40,577 nt of DNA, taken from positions 1-40,577 of the forward strand of contig NZ_JASAOI010000009.1 of NCBI RefSeq assembly GCF_029953285.1, read 5' to 3'. The DNA is from Yinghuangia seranimata. Lineage in GTDB: Bacteria; Actinomycetota; Actinomycetes; Streptomycetales; Streptomycetaceae. The translations under genes were made by a program, and so were the position numbers. Positions 1 to 40,577 of this stretch are shown here, piece by piece. The notes under the pieces were generated by a model. That model did no database searches and had not been told where the DNA came from. It saw nothing but the letters and a program-made list of their open reading frames with translations. Each line of letters begins with the position of its first letter. Within the stretch, counting starts at the first letter, position 1.

Positions 1-345
1 GTTCGGCCGCCCCAATGCCCGGATTTGGTGCGATATGAGACCCATGGAGCCCGGTCACCGGTCGTCAAAGGTGGTCGCCCGCCCCACGCTGGGACCGCAG
101 CCCGGCGACGCGAAGCACGCATTGCGCCTCCACACCGCCTCCCCCTCCCGATAGTTGCCGCGGTTTTAAGCGCGGCCGGGCGCCTGTCAAGGCGCCCCCA
201 CCACCCCGGGACAGGCCACCTGTCGAGGACCGGTCCACCGCGCCTTGACAGGCGACCGGCCGCGCGGACAATCCCCAATCGGGAGGGGGAGATGGCCGCC
301 GCCGACATGCAGGTCCGGGACGGTGCATGGTCTTCGACGTCCACG
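1..345 (-). repeat. Palindromic dispersed element, copy 1 (left end cut by window)
   Basis: The core at 138-292 is a long imperfect inverted repeat. Its outer arms (CTCCCCCTCCCGAT at 139-152, complement at 278-291) and inner arms (CGCCTGTCAAGGCG at 181-194, CGCCTTGACAGGCG at 241-254) are perfect. A conserved tail lies at about 95-137, and similarity to copy 3 runs from about base 2 to 345, so the repeat probably continues past the window start. Read on the minus strand the order is core then tail, 86 bases after the stop of the minus-strand gene that ends at 379. The plus strand carries TTGACA (245-250), 16 bases, then GACAAT (267-272), a possible promoter aimed back at that gene. No convincing protein is encoded here. 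Confidence 0.8.
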
Positions 346-378
346 CCCCAACGACAAGCCCACCCCGGCAAGCCCGGG

Positions 379-1158
379 CTACTCCGCCTGATCCACCAGC
401 CCCGCCCGCAATCGCTTGAGGTGCTGTCGCGTCGTCACCGCTATCACCAGCAGCGCAGGCAGCACGCCCACCGCCTGTATCCATGCCACCGACATCAGCC
501 AGCGGGCCTCCGCGATCGCCCCGTCGATCTTGACGTCCGCGGGCACGCGAGCCGGCTCCCCCATCGCGATCACCATCCGCTCGAACCACGTTCCTACGAG
601 CACCAGGAACATCGGGACGGCGAGCCATATCGGCCGGATCATGGTGCGCCGCGCCTCCCGCGTCCATGGGGATGCGTGGCCGGCGGCCGTCGACGAAGCG
701 GCTCCGTTGCGTCGTCTCCTGAACGGAACCACGGCAGGGGCCGACGAGCCGTACCACGCTTCCCGGTTCCGGGTCACGAGCACCGCCCACCAGGCGATGA
801 GGGCGCATGCGCACAGCGTCGTCCCCATCACCAGCAGGTCGGCCGTCCTCGCGTCCACGCTGGGTTCCGGGGCGAGATCCCACCGCGCCTGCAGAGTCGT
901 GCGTTCGCTCGCCTCGTCGATGCGGGACGCCAGCTCGGCGCGCCAGGACCGATAGGCCCTGTAGACGTTCAGGTTCGCGAGAGCCACTGCCAGCCACGCC
1001 GCGGCGGCGGCCGCGGCGATGATCCGCATGCGCTTCGGGGTCGCGGGCCTCGGCGGCGGAGGGACCACCACCCAGCCGGACGGCCCTCGGCGCCACGACG
1101 CTCCTTGCGGCGTCCACGCCGGGCGTCCCTGCGGCTCCCCGGTCCCGTGATCCGACAC
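379..1158 (-). CDS. Putative multi-pass membrane protein
   Basis: The predicted protein has about 259 residues. A Gly/Pro/Arg/Trp-rich cytoplasmic-looking leader ends in PPPPRP, and four hydrophobic segments follow (RIIAAAAAAAWLAVAL, LLVMGTTLCACALIAWWAVL, IWLAVPMFLVLVGTW and WIQAVGVLPALLVIAV). A basic loop separates the second and third. The proline-rich leader plus four helices resembles DUF4328-type actinobacterial membrane proteins, but no diagnostic motif was found. I chose the GTG at 1158 because GGCGGGGG precedes it at good spacing; an ATG at 1212 would add 18 residues. A terminator at 1300-1344 separates it from the lipase gene upstream. Palindromic element copy 1 lies 86 bases after the stop. 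Function unknown. Confidence 0.7.
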   Translation of the reverse strand: MSDHGTGEPQGRPAWTPQGASWRRGPSGWVVVPPPPRPATPKRMRIIAAAAAAAWLAVALANLNVYRAYRSWRAELASRIDEASERTTLQARWDLAPEPSVDARTADLLVMGTTLCACALIAWWAVLVTRNREAWYGSSAPAVVPFRRRRNGAASSTAAGHASPWTREARRTMIRPIWLAVPMFLVLVGTWFERMVIAMGEPARVPADVKIDGAIAEARWLMSVAWIQAVGVLPALLVIAVTTRQHLKRLRAGLVDQAE

Positions 1159-1299
1159 GTCCACCCCCGCCTCGAAGCCCCCTCTCAGGCAAGGATCCTG
1201 ACGCCCATTCATACCCACCAGCCGGTTGACGCCTTCGTGCGCCAACCGTCACCGTCCCGCGATCCCCCCGGCCGCCGAGAAGGCCGCCGTCGCGAAAGG

Positions 1300-1344
1300 C
1301 GACGGCGCCGCAGGCCCCTGAGCGGGGGGCCTGCGGCGCCGTCG
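1300..1344 (-). terminator. Strong hairpin terminator of the SGNH lipase gene
   Basis: A perfect 19-bp inverted repeat (CGACGGCGCCGCAGGCCCC at 1300-1318 and its complement at 1326-1344) encloses a 7-base loop. It begins 55 bases after the lipase stop. There is no U tract, which is usual for actinomycete terminators. Confidence 0.85.
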
Positions 1345-1399
1345 TGGTGGGCCGCCTGGCGGTGCGGCGTGGTGTGGCGGCCCCGGCGGCGGCCGGCGG

Positions 1400-2335
1400 T
1401 CAGCCGCCGATGGTCCGCAGCACCGCGTCGGCCATCACCCGTTCGCCGGTCGCGTTCGGGTGGAACGGCACGGCCGGGGAGCCCGGCAGGGTGCCTTCGA
1501 TCCAGCGGTCGGCGGAGCACACGTCGTGGCCCTTGGTCGGCGTGAGGGTGTCGACGTACGCCGCGCCGTTCGCCGCGGCCGTGTCGGCCAGCATGGTGTT
1601 GAGCCGGCCGAGGATCCCGCGCAGGTACTCGACGTCCCCGACGGTCACCGGCTGCTTCAGCAGGCAGTCCCACGCGTCGTCGGGCAGCACCGACGGGTAG
1701 CCCACGAGCACGATCTTGGCGTGCGGCGCCTTCGCGTGGATCTGCCGGATGACGGACGCGATCTGCGGCGCCGCCCCGTTGATGCGGTCGACGAGGGTGT
1801 CGTGCCCCCACGTCCAGGACCAGCTGCCCCAGTCCCAGTGGCCGTCCGCGTAGTGGTCCTTGCACGGGGTACCGAGCGGGTTGACGACCGCGCCCGCGAT
1901 GCACGTCGCGATGACGTCGCCGATTCCGAGGTCGGACGTGCCGAGGTCGTTGCCGCCGATGCCGAGCGTCACGAGATCCGTGTCGGCCGAAACGGCGTTC
2001 AGCTGTGCGTCGTTGACCTTGATGAACGCGTCGTATTGGTCCTCGTTCATATCGGCGACCTTGGCCGCCGCGCAGGTGACGTCGCGGTAGTTGGAGACGC
2101 CGAGCGAGGCCGCGACGAGGTGCCCGTAGTTGTGGTCGGAACGCAGGCACAGCCCCGCCGACTGGCTCGGCACGCCGGCGCCGGCCGCGTACGAGTCGCC
2201 GAGCGCGACGTAGTTCCGGTACGCGGCCGAGCCGGCCGCGTCGGCGGCCGCGACCGGTCCGACCAGCGCGGACGCCGCCGCGAGGGCTATGGCGCCGAGC
2301 AGGACGGTGGTGCGCTTGCGGACGGATGTGAGCAC
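1400..2335 (-). CDS. Secreted SGNH/GDSL-family lipase or esterase
   Basis: The 311-residue protein starts with a signal peptide: Lys/Arg at 6-8, a hydrophobic stretch at 11-28, and Ala-rich cleavage sites at about 30-34. SGNH blocks follow in order: ALGDSYAAG with nucleophile Ser48, GIGGND with Asn129, and PFHPN with catalytic His292. Cys63 and Cys88 sit where Streptomyces extracellular lipases form a disulfide. The family hydrolyses esters of fatty acids or other acyl groups outside the cell. The GTG start is supported by GGGAGGA four bases upstream. The gene appears monocistronic, with a terminator behind it and a dyad candidate operator at 2407-2420. The substrate cannot be told from sequence. 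Confidence 0.92.
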   Translation of the reverse strand: MLTSVRKRTTVLLGAIALAAASALVGPVAAADAAGSAAYRNYVALGDSYAAGAGVPSQSAGLCLRSDHNYGHLVAASLGVSNYRDVTCAAAKVADMNEDQYDAFIKVNDAQLNAVSADTDLVTLGIGGNDLGTSDLGIGDVIATCIAGAVVNPLGTPCKDHYADGHWDWGSWSWTWGHDTLVDRINGAAPQIASVIRQIHAKAPHAKIVLVGYPSVLPDDAWDCLLKQPVTVGDVEYLRGILGRLNTMLADTAAANGAAYVDTLTPTKGHDVCSADRWIEGTLPGSPAVPFHPNATGERVMADAVLRTIGG

Positions 2336-2406
2336 GGTTCCTCCCGGGGGCGGGGAACGGGGCGGGACGGAGCGGGCATGCGGCGGAGCGACTACCGGCG
2401 AGTAAG

Positions 2407-2420
2407 TTACTTCCAGGTAA
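2407..2420. promoter_or_regulatory. Candidate dyad operator upstream of the lipase gene
   Basis: TTACTTCCAGGTAA is an imperfect palindrome (TTAC/GTAA ends) about 72 bases upstream of the lipase start, in a locally AT-rich stretch. TTAC-N6-GTAA dyads are typical of TetR-type operators, but no such regulator is adjacent. Low confidence. Confidence 0.3.
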
Positions 2421-2590
2421 ACGAGGAGTCCAGTAATTCGACACGCGAATTCGCAAAGATTTCCTCGCAGTTCGCCCGAGCCCGCCCGACGGGATTCCGC
2501 TCCGCTCCGGAGCGAATCGGATTACGCATTTCGCGCCACGGCGGAGCGAAAAGGAAATCGCGGGATGCGGAAATTCGCTGGGGCGCACGG

Positions 2591-2660
2591 GAGTTCCGGC
2601 GGAGTCCGGCCGGAGTTCCGGGCCGAGTTCCGGGCCGAGTTCCGGGCCGAGTTCCGGACG
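2591..2660. repeat. 12-bp tandem repeat, about 6 units
   Basis: The unit GAGTTCCGGGCC occurs exactly at 2613, 2625 and 2637, with a variant at 2649 and two decayed units at 2591-2612. It lies in the 417-base divergent spacer (2336-2752) between the lipase and Nudix genes. Apart from this repeat and the dyad at 2407-2420, that spacer is a relatively AT-rich stretch (about 2400-2580) with no credible gene. Confidence 0.85.
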
Positions 2661-2752
2661 CGGCCGATCCGGCGTCCCGACGGTTGGTCGGGGCGGCTGT
2701 TCCGGCGGGGTGTCCGCACCATCCCTTCGACGTCCCCGCCTACGCTGGCGCG

Positions 2753-3355
2753 ATGGGAATCACCGAGTTCGCCGCGATGGCGCGGGAGAGGCTGGCGGCG
2801 TTCCGCCCGGCCGAGGTGGCCGCCGGGCGGCGGGCCGCCGTGGTGCTGTGCGTCGTCGAGCGGGAGGGCGCACTGTCGGTGGTCGTCATCAAGCGCGCCT
2901 ACCGGGGCCGGAACGCCGGGCAGTGGGGCCTCCCCGGCGGCCGTGTGGAGGACGGGGAGACCGCCGTCGCGGCCGGCTTGCGCGAACTCGCCGAAGAGGT
3001 GGGCCTGGAGCTTCCGCCGGACGCGGTGCTCGGCCGGCTCGACGACTTCCCCGCCGCGTCCGGATTCGCCATCACCCCCATCGTGGCGTCGACCGCGGAC
3101 CCCGCCAGGCTCGTCCCCAACCACGAGGTGCACGCCGTCCACCTGGTCACACTGGACCGGCTCGCCGCCGACGACACGCCCTACTGGGAGCCGCAGCCCA
3201 CCGGCTCGCCGCTCCTCCAGATGCGCCTCAAGCCCGACATGACCATCCACGCCCCGACGGGCGCCATGCTCTGGCAGTTCCGCGAAGTGGTCCTCCTCGA
3301 CCGGCCCGAGACCCGTGTGGCCGACCTCCTGCAGCCTGACTGGACGCGGTACTGA
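2753..3355 (+). CDS. NUDIX hydrolase
   Basis: The 200-residue protein has a complete Nudix box, G63-x5-E69-x7-R77-E78-L-x-E81-E82-x-G84, with the PGG turn just before it. Nudix enzymes cleave a nucleoside diphosphate linked to another group and bind Mg2+ through the box glutamates. The region after the box (ASGFAITPIVA) resembles CoA-pyrophosphatase-type Nudix proteins, and a CoA-transferase gene follows, but substrate assignment is only suggestive. The ATG at 2753 has no Shine-Dalgarno; TACGCT ends 6 bases upstream, so transcription may be leaderless. It is probably the first gene of a three-gene run with the next two. Confidence 0.88.
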   Translation: MGITEFAAMARERLAAFRPAEVAAGRRAAVVLCVVEREGALSVVVIKRAYRGRNAGQWGLPGGRVEDGETAVAAGLRELAEEVGLELPPDAVLGRLDDFPAASGFAITPIVASTADPARLVPNHEVHAVHLVTLDRLAADDTPYWEPQPTGSPLLQMRLKPDMTIHAPTGAMLWQFREVVLLDRPETRVADLLQPDWTRY

Positions 3356-3387
3356 ACCGCCGGGCGCACTGGGCCCTTTCGGGCGGC

Positions 3388-4611
3388 ATGGCGCTGACCG
3401 GACGTCCGGACGGGCCGCCGCTCGTCCCGGCCTCGGGCGGCGACCCGGCGGCGTGGCTGACGCGTGAGCTCGGCCGGTTCCGGGAGACCGCCGAGCGCTG
3501 CGGCCTGCCGGCCACCGCCGCCGGGCCGCTCCCGGACTGCCGCCTGCTCGGCGAGCGGGCGGCTCTCGGGGGCTTTGTGCGGCAAGGGCGTTCGTCGCCC
3601 GGCGGGGCCTTCCGGCTGATGCGCGCGGGTGACGGCGGGTGGCTGGGAATCAACCTCGCGCGGGCCTGCGACGCCGCCTCCGTGCCGGCTCTGACCGAGG
3701 GCGCCGTGGCCGAGCCTTCGCTTCGGGATCGCGACTGGGCGCCGCTCGAAGCCTGGGTCGGCACCCGCACCGCACGGGAGGTCTGCGAGCGGGCGCTGCT
3801 GTTGGAGATCCCGGCGGCCCGGGTTCCGGACGATCCGTCGGTTCCCCGACAGGACAGTGATGTTCCGATCGCCATCGGACCTCGCGCCCAGCCGCCCGCG
3901 CCCGGCGTGCCGCCGCTGGTCATCGACCTGTCCGCGCTCTGGGCCGGTCCGCTGTGCGCCCACCTGCTCGGGCTCGCCGGCGCCAGCGTCGTCAAGGTCG
4001 AGAGCACGCGACGGCCGGACGGCGCGCGGTTCGGGCCGGCCGCGTTCTACGACCTGCTGCACGCGGGACATGCGTCGGTCGCCTTCGACTTCGCGAATCC
4101 GGATGAAGTCGTTCTGTTGAAAGCCCTGTTGGCCCAGGCCGACATCGTCGTCGAAGCGTCGCGGCCACGGGCGCTCGCACGGCTCGGCATACGACCCGAG
4201 GATGTCGCCGCCCGTCGGCCCGGGCCGACCTGGGTGTCGGTCACGGCGTTCGGACGCACCGGCCCCGGGGCCGACCGGCCCGGCTTCGGCGACGACGTCG
4301 CCGTGGCGGCGGGCCTGTTCGCGCGGGACGCCGACGGAACGCCGCTGGTCTGCGGCGACGCCCTCGCCGATCCGCTGACGGGCGTGCGGGCCGCCGTCGC
4401 CGCGCTGAACGCCTACGCGGGCGGCGGCGGGGTGCTGCTCGATGTGGCGATGTCCGATGTGGCGGCAGAGGCGGCGGCGTTCTCCGGCGGCAGTGGGCGG
4501 ACCGCTGAACCCGCTTGTGCAGCACCACCGTTCGCCCGTTCTCCCTCCGCTGCCGCCCGCCCGCTCGGCGCCGACACCGACGCCGTCCTCAAGGAGTTCG
4601 ATCTACGGTGA
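3388..4611 (+). CDS. CaiB/BaiF-type (family III) CoA-transferase with permuted domain order
   Basis: The family moves CoA between carboxylic acids. In this 407-residue protein the segment that is normally in the middle comes first: the MALTGRPDGPPL block, a segment around GDGGWLGINLARACD, and LEAWVGTRTAREVCERA ending near residue 150. The usual N-terminal Rossmann part then follows from about 170: VIDLSALWAGPLCAHLLGL, GASVVKVES, GRTGPGADRPGF, and ADPLTGVRAAVAAL at about 330. The C-terminus RPLGADTDAVLKEF matches the family end. Homology seems to extend a few codons upstream (HWALSGG) to a stop at 3337-3339, with only CTG codons as starts there. Its stop overlaps the next start (GTGA), indicating translational coupling. 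Confidence 0.82.
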   Translation: MALTGRPDGPPLVPASGGDPAAWLTRELGRFRETAERCGLPATAAGPLPDCRLLGERAALGGFVRQGRSSPGGAFRLMRAGDGGWLGINLARACDAASVPALTEGAVAEPSLRDRDWAPLEAWVGTRTAREVCERALLLEIPAARVPDDPSVPRQDSDVPIAIGPRAQPPAPGVPPLVIDLSALWAGPLCAHLLGLAGASVVKVESTRRPDGARFGPAAFYDLLHAGHASVAFDFANPDEVVLLKALLAQADIVVEASRPRALARLGIRPEDVAARRPGPTWVSVTAFGRTGPGADRPGFGDDVAVAAGLFARDADGTPLVCGDALADPLTGVRAAVAALNAYAGGGGVLLDVAMSDVAAEAAAFSGGSGRTAEPACAAPPFARSPSAAARPLGADTDAVLKEFDLR

Positions 4612-6077
4612 CCGACTCCCCCAGCCCCCGCCTCGTACTGCGCGACGTCGAACTGGACGGCGTGCGCCGCTGCGACGTCGCGATCGCCGACGGGCGCATC
4701 GCCGAGATCTCTCGGGCGCCCGGCGACATCGCCCCGACGGCCGCGGACGAACTCGTGGACGGGCGCGGGGGTGCGCTCATCTGGGGTCTCGCCGACCACC
4801 ACACCCACCTGCACGCGCTCGCGGCCGCCATGGCGTCCGTCTCCTGCGGCCCGCCGAAGGTCACGACCGCCGACGCGCTGGCCGACAGGCTGCGCGACGC
4901 CCTGCCGGGCGCCGACGGCTGGGTGCGCGGTGTCGGCTACCACCCGTCCGTCGCGGGCGAGTTGACGCGGGACCGTCTCGACGCGCTGCGCCCTGACGTC
5001 CCCGTCCGGATCCAGCACCGCAGCGGCGCGCTCTGGTACGTCAACTCGGCCGGCCTGCGCGCACTCGGCCTGGAAACCGAATCCGCGTCGGTCCGCCCCC
5101 TGCCTCCCGGCGTAGGCACCGACCGCGACGGCCGTCCCGACGGACGCCTGTGGGACCTCGACGCCTGGCTCCGCGAGCGCATCCCCTCCCGGCTCCCGGA
5201 CCTCGCCGAAGTCGGATGCCTGTACGCCTCGTTCGGTGTCACACACCTCACCGACGCGACGCCTGACCTCCCCGACGACAGTGTGCGCCACCTCGGCGAG
5301 GCTTCCCGCACCCGTTCGTTGCCGCAGGCGCTCACTCTCCTCGGCCTGCGGCCCGGCTCGTCCGTGTGGCGGGAAACACGCGACGGGCGCGTGCACTTCG
5401 GGGCGTCGAAGATCCACCCGCCGGACCACGACCCCTGGCCGTACGACCGCCTCCTCGCCCGCGTCCGCGAGCTCCGGGGCGAGGAGTACGCCAACGCGGT
5501 GGCCATCCACTGCGTCACGCGCGAGTCTCTGGTGCTGGCCCTGGCCGCGCTCGACGAGGCCGGCCCGCCGATGGTCGGCTTCGACCGGATCGAACACGCC
5601 GCCGTCGTCCCGGTCGAGCTGATCCCGCGTCTCGCCGCCAAGCGGCGCATGGTCGTCACACAGCCCGGCTTCGTCGCCGAGCGCGGCGACGCCTATGCGG
5701 CCGAGGTGGACCCGGCCGACCTGCCCGACCTGTACCGCTACCGCTCGCTCATCGAGGCGGGTGTGCGCGTCGGGCTGTCCAGCGACGCCCCGTACAGCGA
5801 CCCCGACCCGTGGCGGATCCTGCGCGCCGCCCGCGACCGCACTACACCGTCCGGCCGCGTGCTCGGGCCGGACGAACGGGTCACGGCCGCCACCGCCCTG
5901 AACAGCCTGACGAACCGAGGCCGTCCCTCCGCCCGTCCGCCGATCCCGTTCGAGGCGGGCTTCGTCGCCGACCTGTGCCTGTTCCACACACCGCTGGCCG
6001 CGGCGCTCGCCGACCCCCGTCGCGACCTCGTACGCATGACCATCTGCGCCGGCCTGATCGCCTACACGTCGTCCTGA
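4608..6077 (+). CDS. YtcJ-like metal-dependent amidohydrolase (amidohydrolase family 3)
   Basis: The 489-residue protein begins with the small beta domain typical of the family (VELDGVRRCDVAIADGRIAEI). The metal-binding motif DHHTHLHA follows at about 62-69. Later come HCVTRESL, RIEHAAVV with a conserved His, and SSDAPYSDPDPW with the catalytic Asp. Such enzymes hydrolyse amides, ureas or related bonds on small molecules in the cytoplasm. The GTG start at 4608 is set by AAGGAG at 4591-4596 and by overlap with the CoA-transferase stop. Together with that gene it probably acts in catabolism of an acyl-amide or acid; the substrate is unknown. The 3' end overlaps a decayed gene on the other strand. 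Confidence 0.88.
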   Translation: MTDSPSPRLVLRDVELDGVRRCDVAIADGRIAEISRAPGDIAPTAADELVDGRGGALIWGLADHHTHLHALAAAMASVSCGPPKVTTADALADRLRDALPGADGWVRGVGYHPSVAGELTRDRLDALRPDVPVRIQHRSGALWYVNSAGLRALGLETESASVRPLPPGVGTDRDGRPDGRLWDLDAWLRERIPSRLPDLAEVGCLYASFGVTHLTDATPDLPDDSVRHLGEASRTRSLPQALTLLGLRPGSSVWRETRDGRVHFGASKIHPPDHDPWPYDRLLARVRELRGEEYANAVAIHCVTRESLVLALAALDEAGPPMVGFDRIEHAAVVPVELIPRLAAKRRMVVTQPGFVAERGDAYAAEVDPADLPDLYRYRSLIEAGVRVGLSSDAPYSDPDPWRILRAARDRTTPSGRVLGPDERVTAATALNSLTNRGRPSARPPIPFEAGFVADLCLFHTPLAAALADPRRDLVRMTICAGLIAYTSS

Positions 6078-6332
6078 CCGTCCGTCACAGCACCGAGCAC
6101 CGAGCACCGGGAGGAGTTCGGCCTCCTCGTAGGCGAAGTGCGCCTCGAGTCCGGCGGCGACGGCGTCCAGCTCGGCGACGAGCGGCGCGGGGTCCGCGCC
6201 GCCGCGTTGGTTCCGCTCCATCGGGGAGGCGCGCCGTCGGCTTGCGAGCCGGCCGGCTGTGCTGCGGGCGGCCCGAAGCGTTGCGGCGGGGACTGCGCCT
6301 GGCTGCCCCTGCTCGGTCTGTTCCGTGGCCAC
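6062..6332 (-). pseudogene. Remnant of a hemerythrin HHE-domain gene
   Basis: The minus strand at about 6194-6089 encodes LVAELDAVAAGLEAHFAYEE followed by AELLPVLGA, the C-terminal helix of a hemerythrin-like domain with its HxxxE metal ligands. The N-terminal two thirds, with the other ligands, is missing. A 7-bp unit (AGCACCG on the plus strand) occurs three times in tandem at 6089-6109; removing one copy restores the frame to end LPVLGAVTDGQDDV at the TAG at 6062-6064. Intact proteins of this type bind a diiron centre and O2. The lost 5' end lies near palindromic element copy 2. The upstream limit at 6332 is the first ATG of the open frame, not real homology. Confidence 0.65.
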
Positions 6333-6380
6333 GGGCTAAGGATGGGCCGCACCGTCCCGGGGCTGCACCGCTGTCGGTGG

Positions 6381-6600
6381 CCTCCCGCCCCTCCCGCTTT
6401 CGATTTTCGCGCGGCCGACCCGCGCGTCAAGCCGCAGCATGGCCAACGCTGTTGAAGGCGGCCTGTCCCGTGCTTCAGGGGGCGGCTTGACCCGCGGGCC
6501 GTCCGCGCTGAACATCCTTGGCACCTGCGGGAGGGGCGGGAGGTGTGGCGCCGCTCCCTCGCTTCGCGTCGCCGGGCTGCGGTCCCAGCGTGGCGGGCGC
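6381..6600 (+). repeat. Palindromic dispersed element, copy 2 (complete core)
   Basis: The core at 6381-6543 has perfect 17-bp outer arms (CCTCCCGCCCCTCCCGC at 6381-6397, complement at 6527-6543). Its inner arms at 6409-6434 and 6483-6508 match at 23 of 26 positions and end GTCAAGCCG/CGGCTTGAC. The tail 6561-6600 (CTTCGCGTCGCCGGGCTGCG, then GTCCCAGCGTGG) is nearly identical, in reverse orientation, to the tail of copy 1. Compared with copies 1 and 3 the inner stem has GCCG/CGGC where they have GGCG/CGCC, so pairing is kept. It lies 3' of the amidohydrolase gene and points the same way. No protein-coding gene is seen at 6333-7192. Confidence 0.85.
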
Positions 6601-6693
6601 CCGGCGCTGCCGGTCGGTGTCGGCCGGGTGCCGGGACGGGTCGCGCCGCCGGGCCGCGGTCGCCGACCTCTCACCTCTCACTGACAACGGTTT

Positions 6694-6737
6694 TCAAAAG
6701 AACCAGATGGCAACATGTGGCCATTTGGTTCTTTTGA
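6694..6737. other. AT-rich 18-bp hairpin beside element copy 3
   Basis: TCAAAAGAACCAGATGGC (6694-6711) pairs with GCCATTTGGTTCTTTTGA (6720-6737) around an 8-base loop, AACATGTG, with only one mismatch (a possible G-U). Its base composition is far below the surrounding GC level. It sits about 20 bases before the start of detectable similarity between copies 3 and 1. The matching position for copy 1 would be just outside the window. It could be a terminator, a protein site or the end of a mobile unit. Confidence 0.7.
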
Positions 6738-6755
6738 CGCAAAGCCAATAAGGGA

Positions 6756-7130
6756 TTCGGCGCCCTAATGCCCGATTTGGTGCGATATGAGAACCGGGAA
6801 GCGCGGTCACCGGTCGTCAAAGGCGGTCGCCCGCCCGCCCCACGCTGGAACCGCAGCTCGGCAACGCAACGCACGCACTGCGCCTCCACACCGCCTCCCC
6901 CTCCCGATAGTTGCCGCGGTTTTAAGCGCGGCCGGGCGTCTGTCAAGGCGCCCCCACCACCACGCGACAGGCCACCTGTCCGTGGAAGATCCACCGCGCC
7001 TTGACAGGCGACCGGCCGCGCGGACAATCCAAAATCGGGAGGGGGAGATGGACACCGCCGGCAGACAGGCCAGGGGACCGTGCATGGCCGACGATCTCCA
7101 CGCCGCAACGACCGAGGCCCGCCCCGCACA
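6756..7130 (-). repeat. Palindromic dispersed element, copy 3
   Basis: The core at 6894-7048 has outer arms CCTCCCCCTCCCGAT (6894-6908) and ATCGGGAGGGGGAG (7034-7047). The inner arms are CGTCTGTCAAGGCG (6937-6950) and CGCCTTGACAGGCG (6997-7010), with one mismatch. Similarity with copy 1 covers the core, about 140 bases on the left and about 80 on the right, with scattered substitutions and small gaps, so the two are not a recent duplication. It lies 3' of the minus-strand gene ending at 7193, in the same core-then-tail orientation. TTGACA (7001-7006) and GACAAT (7023-7028), 16 bases apart, form a possible promoter pointing into that gene's 3' end. Confidence 0.85.
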
Positions 7131-7192
7131 TGCCGGCACGCTCGCACACCGACGGCGCGCCGCCGCAACGGTCCAGACCAACCCACCCCCGC

Positions 7193-7810
7193 TCAGGCGT
7201 ACATCGCCCGTAGGTCGCGGGCGTCTCGGACGAAGTCACGGCATTGGCGGGTCCACAGCAGGTATGTGTCGGCGTCGACGTTCTTGGGGCCCGGGCCTTC
7301 CGCGACCCACTGGTCCCAGAGGCCGCCCTCGGTGAGGTAGCGGGAGGCCCGTTCGGTGTGGTGGTTCGCGTCCAAGAGCATGAGGGCGCCGAGAGCCCAG
7401 GGCTGGTCGGAGAGGATCTTGGGCTGCGCGAGGTAGTGGTCGAGATACGCCGTCAGCAGTTCGGCGTCGGCCGGCTCGCCGAAGAGGGCCAGGGCTGTGC
7501 AGTGGCCCTGGCCGGCGCCGGCGTACTTGCCGGCGAGGAGTTGCTCGCCGAGGCGTTCCCGGTACGCGGTGCGGCCGTCCACCGCAACGAGCCAGGCCGC
7601 GACCGCCCGCTCGCGCCAGCCCCAGGCCAGCAGGGTGTCGAGGTCCGCGTCGGTGATCGCGGCGGCGTCCTGGGCCAACGCCAGGCCGAACTCGGCGCGT
7701 TCGGTGCCGGGCGTGCCACCGATCGCGCACCTGGGCAGCTTTATGTGCCGGTCCTGGACGTAGTACCGGCTCAGCCGGTTCGCCTCGGGTGTGCCGTAAT
7801 CCTCGAGCAT
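7193..7810 (-). CDS. DUF6000 family protein
   Basis: The 205-residue protein matches the actinobacterial DUF6000 pattern: AWLVAVDGRTAYRERLGEQL, then YAGAGQGHCTALALFG, AYLDHYLAQP, SDQPWALGALMLLD and TEGGLWDQWV. The family has no known biochemical function and looks like a helical-repeat soluble protein. The ATG at 7810 is chosen because conserved sequence begins shortly after it; the frame stays open upstream through a pentanucleotide repeat, which makes a longer form unlikely. No clear Shine-Dalgarno is visible. Element copy 3 follows 144 bases after the stop. Confidence 0.8.
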   Translation of the reverse strand: MLEDYGTPEANRLSRYYVQDRHIKLPRCAIGGTPGTERAEFGLALAQDAAAITDADLDTLLAWGWRERAVAAWLVAVDGRTAYRERLGEQLLAGKYAGAGQGHCTALALFGEPADAELLTAYLDHYLAQPKILSDQPWALGALMLLDANHHTERASRYLTEGGLWDQWVAEGPGPKNVDADTYLLWTRQCRDFVRDARDLRAMYA

Positions 7811-9796: not shown

Positions 9797-12190
9797 CTAC
9801 GCCAGCGACAGCGCCGCCAGGGCTCCGTTCACGATGGAGCCCGGGAGCAGGTCGTGGAGGCCGTACAGGTCCTCGATGCGGCCGGTCTGGCCGAACTGGT
9901 CGACGCCGAGGGGGACGCACGGGACGCCGAGGGCGGAGCCGAGCCAGGCCAGCGTGTGCGAGGCCGAGTCGTGGACGGTGACGACCGGGGCGCGGTCGGG
10001 GAAGGCGCTGCGGAGGACGCCCGGCGCGGACGGGGTCGTCGCCGTCCGCACGCCCTGCCGGAGCGTGCGCTGCCACCCCGCGTACAGCCGGTCGGCGGAG
10101 GTGATGTCGACGACGTGCGCCGCGATGCCCTCCTCGCGCAGTTCCTCGGCGGCGAGCAGGACCTCCGGCAGGACGGCGCCGCACGAGGCCAGGTAGACGC
10201 TGGGCGCGTCGGCCAGCTCGGCGGGCGCGTCGAGGAGCCGGTACGCCCCGGCCAGCACCTGCCGCCGCAGCACCGCGTCGCCGATGCGGGCGCGGGCGGC
10301 CTCGAACGGCGACTGGTCGATGGGCCGCGTGGTGAGCCGGAAGTAGTAGGAGCCGTTGTCGGGGTCGACGCCCTGGTCGGGCCCGGCGGCGATGCGGCCG
10401 ACGGCGTCGCACAGCAGCCAGTCGAGCGCGGTGCCGTACGCGGGTTCGATGAGCGTGGTGCCGGGCAGTTCGAGGCCGATCGACGCCGTGATCGTCGACT
10501 GGTGCGCACCGCCCTCGGGGGCGAGCGTCACACCGGACGGCGTGCCCGCGATGATGAACCGCGAGCCGGAGTAGGTGGCGTGGATGAACGCGTCGAGCCC
10601 CCGGCACACGAACGGGTCGTAGACGGTGCCGACGGGGATGAGCGGCTGCCCCGACAGGTCGCCGGCCAACCCGAGCTGCCCCAGCAGCAGGAACAGGTTC
10701 ATCTCGGAGATGCCGAGCTCGATGTGCTGCCCGCTCGGCCCCTCGACCCACTTGAGCGCGCCGTCGGCCGACCAGGCGCGGCGCACGGCGGGCGCGAAGA
10801 CGCCGGTGCGGTTGATGAAGCCGGCGAGGTTGGTCGAGGTGGCGACGTCCGGCGCGGTGGTGACCAGGTACGGCGCGAGCGCGGGGTCGCGGGACAGGTC
10901 GACGAGCACGCGTCCGAAGGTCTCCTGGGTGGAGACCGGCTTGCTCATGCGCTGCCCGGTCGCGTTCGGCACAGCGACGCCGAGCGGCCCCGGCTTGGGG
11001 TCGCGGGCGAGGTGCTCGCGGCGCTGCGCGGCGAGGATGCCCTCGGGCGTCGCCGGGTCGAAGCGGTCCCATTCGGTGCCGGGCGTGAGCCCGAGCTCGG
11101 CGCGCAGGTCGGCGACCTGCTCGGTGGTCAGCAGCGCCGAGTGGTTGCGCGGGTTGCCGGCGACCGGCAGCCCCCAGCCCTTGACGGTGTACGCGAAGAC
11201 GACGCTGGGCCGGTCGGTCTCGGCGTCGCAGGCGCGGTACGCCTCGAGCAGCGCCCCTATGTCGTGGCCGCCGAGGTCGGTGACCAGGTCGCGCAGCTCG
11301 GTGTCGGGGATGCCGGCCAGCGCCTCGGCGACCCCGGCGGGGGCGCCGTCGAGGAACGCGGCGCGCACGGCGGAGGCGTCGAGCCCGAAGAGGGACTGGT
11401 ACTGCTCGTTGGGCATGGCGTCGAGCCAGCCCTTGAGCGCGTCGCCGCCGGGGCGGGCGAACGCGGCCTGCAGGCGGCGCCCGTACTTGACCTCGACAAC
11501 GTGCCAGCCGGCGGCGGCGAACTGGCCGCGCCACTGGTCGATGCGCACGCCCGGCACGACGCGGTCGAGCGACTGCCGGTTGAAGTCGACGATCCACATG
11601 ACCTTGCCGAGCCCCTGCGTGGCGGGGTCGGCGATGGCCTCCCAGATGTTGCCCTCGTCGAGTTCGGCGTCGCCGAGCAGCGCGATGAACCGGGCGGCGG
11701 GGCGGGGCCCGAAGTGCGCGTCGACGTACCGCCGGGTGGCGGCGGCGAACAGCGGGGCGGCCGCGCCGAGGCCGACGGACCCGGTGGAGAAGTCGATCCA
11801 CTCGCGGTCGGGGTCCTTGGTGCGCGACGGGTAGGACTGTAGTCCGCCCTTGGCGCGCAGCATCGTCAGGTACGACCGGTCGAGGTTGCCCAGCAGGTAC
11901 TGGATGCCGTGGAACACGGGCGAGGCGTGCGGCTTGACGCTGATCCGGTCGGGCCCGTCGAGGTGCGCGAACCACAGCGCGGTCATCGCCGAGACGAGCG
12001 ACGCGGACGAGGCCTGGTGGCCGCCGACCTTGATGCCGTCGGTGTTGGGACGGTCGTGGTTGGCGGCGTCGACGATGCGGGTGGCCAGCCACAGGACGCG
12101 TCGCTGGACGGCGTCGAGGACGGCCGGTTCGATGCCGAGCGCGCCCGCGGGGTGGTCGGTGGCGGCGTGCCGGACAGCGCTGTCGTGCAT
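9797..12190 (-). CDS. Homodimeric-type pyruvate (2-oxoacid) dehydrogenase E1 component, transketolase-like
   Basis: The 797-residue protein has the domain order of AceE-like E1 enzymes. The N-terminal thiamine-diphosphate domain contains GGHQASSASL, the conserved HGIQYLLGNL, and the ThDP motif GDAELDEGNIWEA at 173-185 with Asn204. The central pyrimidine-binding domain follows (around GISEMNLFLLLG and TPSGVTLAPEGGAHQS), then a transketolase C-terminal domain. These enzymes decarboxylate a 2-oxoacid for transfer to a lipoyl E2. It is about 100 residues shorter than typical AceE and no E2 or E3 gene is near, so the substrate may be another 2-oxoacid. The ATG at 12190 has GAGGAG five bases upstream; TAGGGT at 12267-12272 may be its -10. 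Confidence 0.85.
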   Translation of the reverse strand: MHDSAVRHAATDHPAGALGIEPAVLDAVQRRVLWLATRIVDAANHDRPNTDGIKVGGHQASSASLVSAMTALWFAHLDGPDRISVKPHASPVFHGIQYLLGNLDRSYLTMLRAKGGLQSYPSRTKDPDREWIDFSTGSVGLGAAAPLFAAATRRYVDAHFGPRPAARFIALLGDAELDEGNIWEAIADPATQGLGKVMWIVDFNRQSLDRVVPGVRIDQWRGQFAAAGWHVVEVKYGRRLQAAFARPGGDALKGWLDAMPNEQYQSLFGLDASAVRAAFLDGAPAGVAEALAGIPDTELRDLVTDLGGHDIGALLEAYRACDAETDRPSVVFAYTVKGWGLPVAGNPRNHSALLTTEQVADLRAELGLTPGTEWDRFDPATPEGILAAQRREHLARDPKPGPLGVAVPNATGQRMSKPVSTQETFGRVLVDLSRDPALAPYLVTTAPDVATSTNLAGFINRTGVFAPAVRRAWSADGALKWVEGPSGQHIELGISEMNLFLLLGQLGLAGDLSGQPLIPVGTVYDPFVCRGLDAFIHATYSGSRFIIAGTPSGVTLAPEGGAHQSTITASIGLELPGTTLIEPAYGTALDWLLCDAVGRIAAGPDQGVDPDNGSYYFRLTTRPIDQSPFEAARARIGDAVLRRQVLAGAYRLLDAPAELADAPSVYLASCGAVLPEVLLAAEELREEGIAAHVVDITSADRLYAGWQRTLRQGVRTATTPSAPGVLRSAFPDRAPVVTVHDSASHTLAWLGSALGVPCVPLGVDQFGQTGRIEDLYGLHDLLPGSIVNGALAALSLA

Positions 12191-40423: not shown

Positions 40424-40476
40424 GTTTTCGGGCACCTGGCTGCGGCGTTCCTGACCTGGTTCGTTTTCGGTGGCCT

Positions 40477-40577
40477 GACGCCCCTCCCGCTCTTGGATTT
40501 TCCGCGCGGACGGCCCGCGCCTCAAGCCGATGCTGGCAGCGCTTGGTCAGGTGGCCTTGTCCTGTTGCGGCTTGACC
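40477..40577 (+). repeat. Palindromic dispersed element, copy 4 (right end cut by window)
   Basis: The left outer arm (ACGCCCCTCCCGCTC, from about 40479) and the inner arm GCGCGGACGGCCCGCGCCTC plus AAGCCG (40504-40529) match copy 2. The loop contains CAGGTGGCC as in copies 1 and 3. The right inner arm begins CGGCTTGACC at 40568 and is cut at the window end. It belongs to the GCCG/CGGC subfamily with copy 2 and follows the plus-strand SDR gene in the same core-first orientation. Confidence 0.75.

Follow-up and report, generated by a model that had tools for sequence, protein, structure and literature searches.

Several classes of dispersed palindromic repeats have been described in bacteria. 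REPINs, doublets of repetitive extragenic palindromic (REP) sequences, are characterized in the accessible text of their description as inverted palindrome pairs that are extragenic and form species-specific populations in which the pair is the unit (PMC3116915). CGTC-REPs, in the available part of their source, are palindromes of 20–40 bp located between unidirectional and convergent open reading frames (ORFs), with no dedicated transposase known (PMC3733652). Bacterial miniature inverted-repeat transposable elements (MITEs) such as ERIC/RU-1, RUP (108 copies) and NEMIS/Correia are presented in the accessible sections of two papers as non-coding, dispersed and foldable into long stem-loops (PMC2229807, PMC3733652), and TIMEs are named alongside them, in the text available, as another bacterial MITE group. 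TIRtrons/TIRYT, as far as the accessible portion describes them, have self-complementary terminal inverted repeats (TIRs), which make up repeat families and lie on either side of a gene (PMC3733652). Here, we describe a family of composite palindromic units in the actinobacterium Yinghuangia seranimata, found in a stretch of 40,577 nt (RefSeq assembly GCF_029953285.1, contig NZ_JASAOI010000009.1; hereafter the window), which is the entire contig C55 of a genome totalling 9.80 Mb in 113 contigs. We consider it likely (probability roughly 0.7) that these units are a lineage-specific, MITE/REPIN-like composite mobile repeat that spread recently. No actinobacterial repeat of such anatomy was found in the accessible parts of the open-access literature.

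A sequence-only reading of the window had described four copies of a palindromic element. Our analysis confirmed these copies, which have a common core and, wherever present, a one-sided tail; copies 1 and 3 lie on the minus strand and copies 2 and 4 on the plus strand. Across 40 nt of the tail, positions 77–116 and 6561–6600 show 93% complementarity. Core-to-gene-end distances, calculated with model-matched cores and our own gene caller, were 87, 307, 145 and 54 nt, in line with the 86, 303, 144 and 53 nt reported earlier, and the proposed inner-stem swap (TCAAGGCG/CGCCTTGA versus TCAAGCCG/CGGCTTGA) was reproduced in an alignment of mixed subfamilies (A3). When folded with their tails, copies 2, 1 and 3 had minimum free energy z-scores of −3.6, −5.7 and −5.7, respectively, and 0 of 200 dinucleotide shuffles was as stable in each case. 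The view of four separate elements had to be given up: copies 2 and 3 are the two halves of a single inverted-repeat unit, and copies 1 and 4 are half-units truncated by the contig ends. The window contains the following features:

1–345, minus strand: copy 1, right unit half with an A-type arm, truncated by the contig start
139–292 (core), about 60–138 (tail) and outer flank to about 345, minus strand: sub-parts of copy 1
6218–7171 (approximate), no strand: complete two-arm unit of about 950 bp
6384–6539, plus strand: hairpin core of copy 2, B-type arm, covariance model score 138.5 bits
6540–6620, plus strand: conserved one-sided tail of the B arm
6694–6737, no strand: central hairpin TCAAAAGAACC...GGTTCTTTTGA between both tails, palindrome ends read from the sequence
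6816–6894, minus strand: conserved one-sided tail of the A arm
6895–7048, minus strand: hairpin core of copy 3, A-type arm, 163.5 bits, the top-scoring arm of the genome search
40440–40459, plus strand: motif at the outer end of a C-type unit, consensus CTGCACCGTTCCTGACCTGG
40477–40577, plus strand: copy 4, core of a C2-type arm, 62 bits, 3′ side truncated by the contig end

The outer ends of the complete unit are partly inverted repeats of each other (6218–6257 versus 7132–7171, 80%), with a second such stretch at 6225–6292 versus 7097–7164 (79%). A unit on another contig is 93–95% identical to it, and no similar gene was present among the nearest two per side of these twins.

Genome-wide, BLAST searches with copy 3 and copy 2 as queries, each scoring 40 candidates, were followed by a covariance model built from 47 arms (R1), which gave 146 matches among the 150 best candidates. 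These represent at least 105 arms, counting contig-end fragments; the remaining 41 were mirror-strand matches to the same palindromes. The covariance-model search of the genome and its relatives, proposed in the sequence-only reading, revealed a large population that is nearly confined to one genome among those searched. Copy 4 of the window and one further arm, the cut right arm of a unit on contig C36, were matched only in a search of 1.19 Mb of sequence, where 93 arms were kept from 193 model matches; those removed were matches to the mirror strand and five fragments truncated at the end of a locus or contig.

The modules form 70 groups, comprising 25 with two arms, 26 with one arm and a second type of module (M), and 19 with a single module, most of the latter at contig ends or belonging to units with an internal ORF. 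All 25 two-arm groups have a plus-strand arm followed by a minus-strand arm, with a core spacing of 324–392 nt in 21 of them; the arms are inverted, the tails point inward and a small central hairpin lies in the middle. An arm of ∼220 nt consists of a multi-stem palindrome of 155 nt and the one-sided tail. Read from the outside in, the aligned units listed start with an outer segment ending in CTGCACCGTTCCTGACCTG, after which come the multi-stem core, the tail, led by GTGTGG and containing CCCAGCGTGG, and a middle region that often includes the central hairpin. Of the 17 matches to this hairpin in 61 sources, 16 were inside units, one was near a unit and none was elsewhere. The inner stem distinguishes subfamilies A, B, D, C1 and C2. 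C-type units are asymmetric (0.39–0.67 kb) with an M module at the far end, and composite units overall span about 0.4–1.9 kb. The M motif GTGACGCRRGTGTGACGC occurs at 41 genome sites with ≤1 mismatch, two of them apparent chance matches, compared to none for a reversed-pattern control.

At the outer unit end, the M module (e.g. L103:9068–9085, end GTGACGCRRGTGTGACGC) either takes the place of an arm or flanks one. At L117, L129 and L138, the arm has an incomplete copy of its start, GGTGGCCTGACGCC, just upstream, which suggests that insertion at the outer end was nested or occurred repeatedly. Both window ends and at least two dozen other contig ends lie within or near an arm or M module; the repeats therefore probably broke the assembly, and its gaps may hide more units, perhaps longer ones. 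No arm was found at 40 further contig starts where sequence letters were available. A degenerate-pattern scan of genome contigs returned at least 79 stretches, none of which was a clear arm according to the arm model. The loops of the arms are hypervariable, with 85 distinct loops among 92 arms (one of 93 could not be parsed). Seven loops are each common to two arms, as expected from copying or recombination among copies. We had also considered the loops as locus-specific guides, which we rejected because of these seven shared loops.

How do these units compare with the known systems? As in REPINs and bacterial interspersed mosaic elements (BIMEs), the inverted doublet is the unit in all 25 two-arm groups, yet the 26 further groups combine an arm with M, and the present arms are several times longer and have tails and a central hairpin. 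It is extremely improbable that the units are classical REPINs, i.e. GTAG-tagged REP doublets moved by the REP-associated tyrosine transposase (RAYT, Y1_Tnp). They follow the REPIN plan of extragenic, species-specific inverted palindrome pairs, as given in the accessible text (PMC3116915), but their genome has no match to Y1_Tnp (PF01797) while 5 of 14 control genomes were positive, no GTAG tag was seen at the arm ends, and the arms measure ∼155 nt versus the 20–40 bp stated in the available part of PMC3733652. The same size difference separates them from CGTC-REPs, since the ∼155-nt cores here are part of composite units; CGTC-REPs are nevertheless the nearest described orphan class in the portion of that paper that is accessible (PMC3733652). 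Like MITEs, the units are dispersed, multi-copy and lineage-specific. Unlike MITEs, they have no detected target-site duplication (TSD) in the arm-plus-M units examined and apparently no simple TIR of 15–30 bp (the outer ends of the window unit are 79–80% inverted, and C/M units have two unlike ends), and a few of them carry a gene inside. Where genes are present, they are AbiEi/DUF559-like or IS5-like, not the tyrosine (HUH) transposase of TIRtrons/TIRYT. In their mode of working the units are most like REPINs and MITEs, although the defining features of the former (RAYT, GTAG tag and size) and of the latter (TSD) were not found.

Outside the source genome, R1 gave one weak match each in 4 of 30 relatives (E ≤ 0.001), and in a sample of 150 genomes of the family (E ≤ 1e-5, stricter filters) only the source genome and one congener matched. 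The hairpin of this congener is a singleton in its own genome, and the two congeners searched contain at most one weak copy each. The singleton is separated by 172 nt from the 3′ end of a minus-strand gene, with the same polarity, and a plus-strand gene is 1.9 kb away on the other side. A weak match in another family of the order (L084) has convergent genes on either side; for two other weak relatives, a gene was called on just one side (L083) or the gap was not convergent (L085). Arm homologues were absent from plasmid and phage collections, and a motif scan of viral contigs gave three matches, all without the arm plan. Among the three roles suggested for the element (3′-end mRNA stabiliser or terminator, RNA derived from the 3′ untranslated region, or palindromic mobile unit), the mobile unit is thus best supported, with its many dispersed arms and at most single weak matches in each relative. 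Such units would spread as DNA through an enzyme acting on their ends or palindromes. Insertions into genes or promoters would be lost, leaving the units to accumulate in convergent gaps, and any effects on terminators or mRNA 3′ ends would be secondary.

A weak match in another family of the order also led to a hairpin family on Streptomyces plasmids, with 8 records for the first query and 22 for a Streptomyces query. These hairpins (L313–L325) are ∼143 nt long with a branched three-hairpin tip, and six scanned loci had no above-threshold Rfam match. They resemble the arms in having an outer CCCG..CGGG stem, an inner GTCAAG/CTTGAC stem and a CTATCGGG segment, in some cases followed by GTGTGG. 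In contrast to the units, no second hairpin was found within about 2 kb, and they differ from the arm population in their branched tip and in occupying only one or two places per plasmid. The gene orientation around them appears mixed. R1 matched two of five such loci (E 4e-4 and 0.012), and a model of the Streptomyces hairpins matched five arms (E 0.005–0.054). Judged by these sequences, common ancestry is plausible, and the link to the arms is weak.

The sequence-only reading had also stated that every copy lies 3′ of a gene. We examined this with our own gene caller, to which RNA genes are invisible, in loci fetched because they hold modules. Leaving aside 12 of the 70 groups without a called gene on one side, the remaining 58 were located in convergent (28), tandem (16 and 8) and divergent (6) gaps, compared to a background of 156 convergent pairs out of 901, or 52 out of 465 for gaps >100 bp. 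For two of the 28 convergent groups, the neighbouring gene was the ORF of the element itself, and we therefore recounted without the three ORF-unit groups. Convergent gaps then hold 26 of 55 groups (odds ratio 4.3, p 8e-7; odds ratio 7.1, p 9e-10 against gaps >100 bp), divergent gaps are depleted (odds ratio 0.28, p 0.0014), and a gene reads into the group on 75 of 110 group sides. The other 29 groups are outside convergent gaps and mostly supported by well-scored genes, so the gene polarity is a bias: the claim stands as an enrichment and falls as a genome-wide rule. A convergent bias is expected both from the loss of promoter insertions and from a function at 3′ ends. The CoA-transferase/amidohydrolase gene pair of the window (3388–7193) has kept homologues in two congeners, where other genes follow them, which places the window unit at a synteny break. 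At the unit on contig C44, a tmRNA gene is closer than the called neighbour, and a single C1 arm followed by a central-type hairpin (L109:9840–9994 and 10279–10645) adjoins the tmRNA gene.

The enrichment could alternatively reflect a bidirectional 3′-end RNA cassette, whose arms terminate or stabilise the mRNAs of both convergent genes and whose position is selected. The very stable arm folds, the conserved unpaired segments and tail, and the weak relatives (the congener singleton near the 3′ end of a minus-strand gene in the same polarity, and L084 between convergent genes) are all in line with this idea. So are the loops: in 79 of 92 arms (three ties), the loop alone forms the better fold in gene sense, although the loops are 64% G+T, a composition that alone favours the gene-sense strand. 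For whole arms, however, gene sense is more stable in only 46 of 93. Selection on a gene-sense RNA further predicts that G-U is tolerated over A-C. We therefore used a strand-symmetric test within subfamilies, based on 196 pairs that were predicted on both strands in 89 arms (four odd arms of class X were excluded from the subfamily folds), and counted 7 G-T versus 17 A-C mismatch cells. Without a G-U excess, the stems give no pointer to RNA. An earlier G-U count from one-strand folding (198 versus 24) was biased and was replaced by these both-strand pairs. In addition, the region 6100–7200 contains a single intrinsic terminator-like site, in the central hairpin, versus 0.7 in shuffles; Rfam had no match in the window and only sub-threshold miRNA models elsewhere; and the units occur in one species only among those searched, with more than half of the groups elsewhere than in convergent gaps. 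Taken together, we regard the RNA cassette as unlikely.

The suggestion that covarying stems indicate selected pairing held between subfamilies, where both sides change in 8 of 31 strand-symmetric pairs (A3), and not within them, where 1 of 196 pairs covaries. Given these changes on both sides, palindromy itself seems to be maintained, albeit through few evolutionary events. In an alignment of the Streptomyces-type hairpins (13 plasmid loci and the first one), 8 of 35 pairs covary and the mismatches are 4 G-T versus 8 A-C. On balance, we read the arms as a DNA-level palindrome. A palindrome of this kind might also be a DNA-architecture site for gyrase, a nucleoid protein or condensin that was duplicated under selection. 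The stems lack strand bias, the units are intergenic, and REPs and BIMEs are described as protein-binding sites in the accessible text of PMC2817692; a species-specific distribution with cargo genes would however be unexpected for a housekeeping site, and we consider this highly unlikely.

The arms also contain promoter-like sequences. Using the pattern TTGAC(A/G)-N16-(G/T)A(A/C)(A/C)AT (≥9 of 12 positions), we detected outward sites in 75 of 93 arms, compared to a resampled mean of 0.2, and inward sites in none. Two such sites were predicted in the window region 6100–7200 (0.0 in shuffles):

7001–7028: predicted outward sigma70-like site with a fixed 16-bp spacer
6430–6403: predicted outward sigma70-like site with a fixed 16-bp spacer

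The units could accordingly be dispersed outward promoters, one per arm, that are kept because they drive sense or antisense transcription of the neighbours. The first −10 base, though, is G in 73 of the 75 sites; in convergent gaps the sites are directed into gene 3′ ends; and none of the 14 hairpins in the Streptomyces-type alignment has an outward site. Moreover, the arms descend from few ancestors, so the 75 sites are not independent and count as a handful of observations. This explanation is very doubtful.

If the units are mobile, their own genes are of particular interest. Two B-type units, on contigs C75 (L116) and C36 (L115), enclose an intact ORF of ∼326 codons in the same place and orientation, and two other units contain the end of a transposase gene:

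L116:5441–6421 (C75) and L115:18639–19622 (C36): AbiEi/DUF559-like ORF
L162:19737–20000 (C23) and L123:10118–10270 (C67): end of an IS5-like DDE_Tnp_4 transposase

The two ORF-bearing units share 77% identity across 1233 bp; in the C36 unit, the right arm is truncated by the contig end. The N-terminus of the ORF protein matches AbiEi_4 (25.1 bits, cut-off 25), PADLOC gave AbiEi matches (best 6e-14), the MTES_1575 nuclease match was below threshold, and no relative of solved structure was found by sequence. Its homologues in the genome are one close copy (73%) and a distant one on contig C6 (36%); neither an arm nor an inverted repeat resembling one was found in the 19.4 kb around the latter. 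The copies in the units have a dN/dS of 0.24 (NG86) or 0.08 (YN00), and PD, E and H are invariant across four aligned homologues. Elsewhere, a single plasmid match (34.5%) was found, and none in phages or viral contigs. Among the 243 neighbour proteins (two per side), the pairs listed at E 1e-8 mostly belonged to common families at 25–65% identity; those listed include four helix-turn-helix (HTH)/DUF5753 regulators, LuxR-type regulators and a short-chain dehydrogenase/reductase (SDR) pair at 65%, and one member of another pair (61%) was sigma-factor-like when scanned. Only the element ORFs (81%) and two contig-end ORFs (98% over 50 amino acids (aa)) exceeded 80%, and a Pfam scan assigned the latter pair to the end of a DDE_Tnp_4 gene.

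The other two units, on contigs C23 (A arm and M) and C67 (D arm and central hairpin), run into a common sequence that is 99.4% identical over 169 nt, ends with the contigs and encodes the C-terminus of a DDE_Tnp_4 transposase. The longer piece (87 aa) matches positions 79–158 of the 158-position profile (35.1 bits, E 1e-8, cut-off 24.8), the shorter one (50 aa) is slightly under the cut-off (24.5 bits), and plasmid homologues include genes annotated as IS5 family. In unit sense, the junctions are CCCTATT^ and ^ATTGG at the same internal place in both. This pattern would fit entry of the sequence into a single site in either direction, possibly with a duplication of ATT; the comparison involves two distinct units. 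No further copy of this end was present in the loci examined (about 2.1 Mb of genome, overlaps counted). Its end and the unit end motif have 11 of 12 nt in common, an agreement reached by 10 of 20,000 shuffles, with the motif chosen after seeing the match. The gene end inside two units, its plasmid homologues and the similar termini would link the family to IS5, from which it differs in that no complete copy was seen and in that arms, tails and M are unlike a simple insertion sequence (IS). The IS5-like sequence may merely have been inserted into the units.

Of the two proteins, the IS5-like DDE transposase is a tentative candidate for the mobiliser, and the AbiEi winged-helix-turn-helix/DUF559-like protein an improbable one; either may be a passenger using the middle of the unit. 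A broader version would make the ORF units the autonomous form of a new element class, in which the AbiEi winged-helix and DUF559-like (PD-(D/E)XK) protein moves arms in cis and in trans and thereby seeds non-coding derivatives between convergent genes. The IS5-like transposase end inside two other units makes this version less probable, and we regard it as rather unlikely even as a possibility worth stating.

Several observations weigh against a recently spread mobile repeat. At 24 units with one arm and M (three of 27 were skipped), the only ones used for this test, we found no whole-unit TSD (mean 0.58 nt versus 0.28 at random, fraction 0.062), and C/M units have two unlike ends. No empty site was identified; in two congeners, different genes follow the homologue of the gene to the left of the window unit. 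Each candidate enzyme is present in just two units. Since the transposase pieces run off their contigs, a unit bearing a transposase was never seen in full, and both copies of the element ORF read EVN, with N for D in the ExD motif, where the other two homologues read EVD or EID. The 29 groups outside convergent gaps and the gene-sense preference of the loops also belong here, as do the mismatches in the mixed alignment A3 (8 G-T versus 1 A-C), four of the eight G-T cells being one variant pair.

The family amounts to a population of about a hundred composite palindromes that looks recent and is located in a single high-GC genome. With two candidate genes inside units, a long-standing question becomes testable: how orphan palindromic repeats for which no transposase is known, such as CGTC-REPs and ERIC, spread. 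Should the AbiEi/DUF559-like protein mobilise the arms, the known mobilisers would gain an enzyme class of a very different kind; should the IS5-like transposase do so, the repeats would be its derivatives, of unusual size and complexity.

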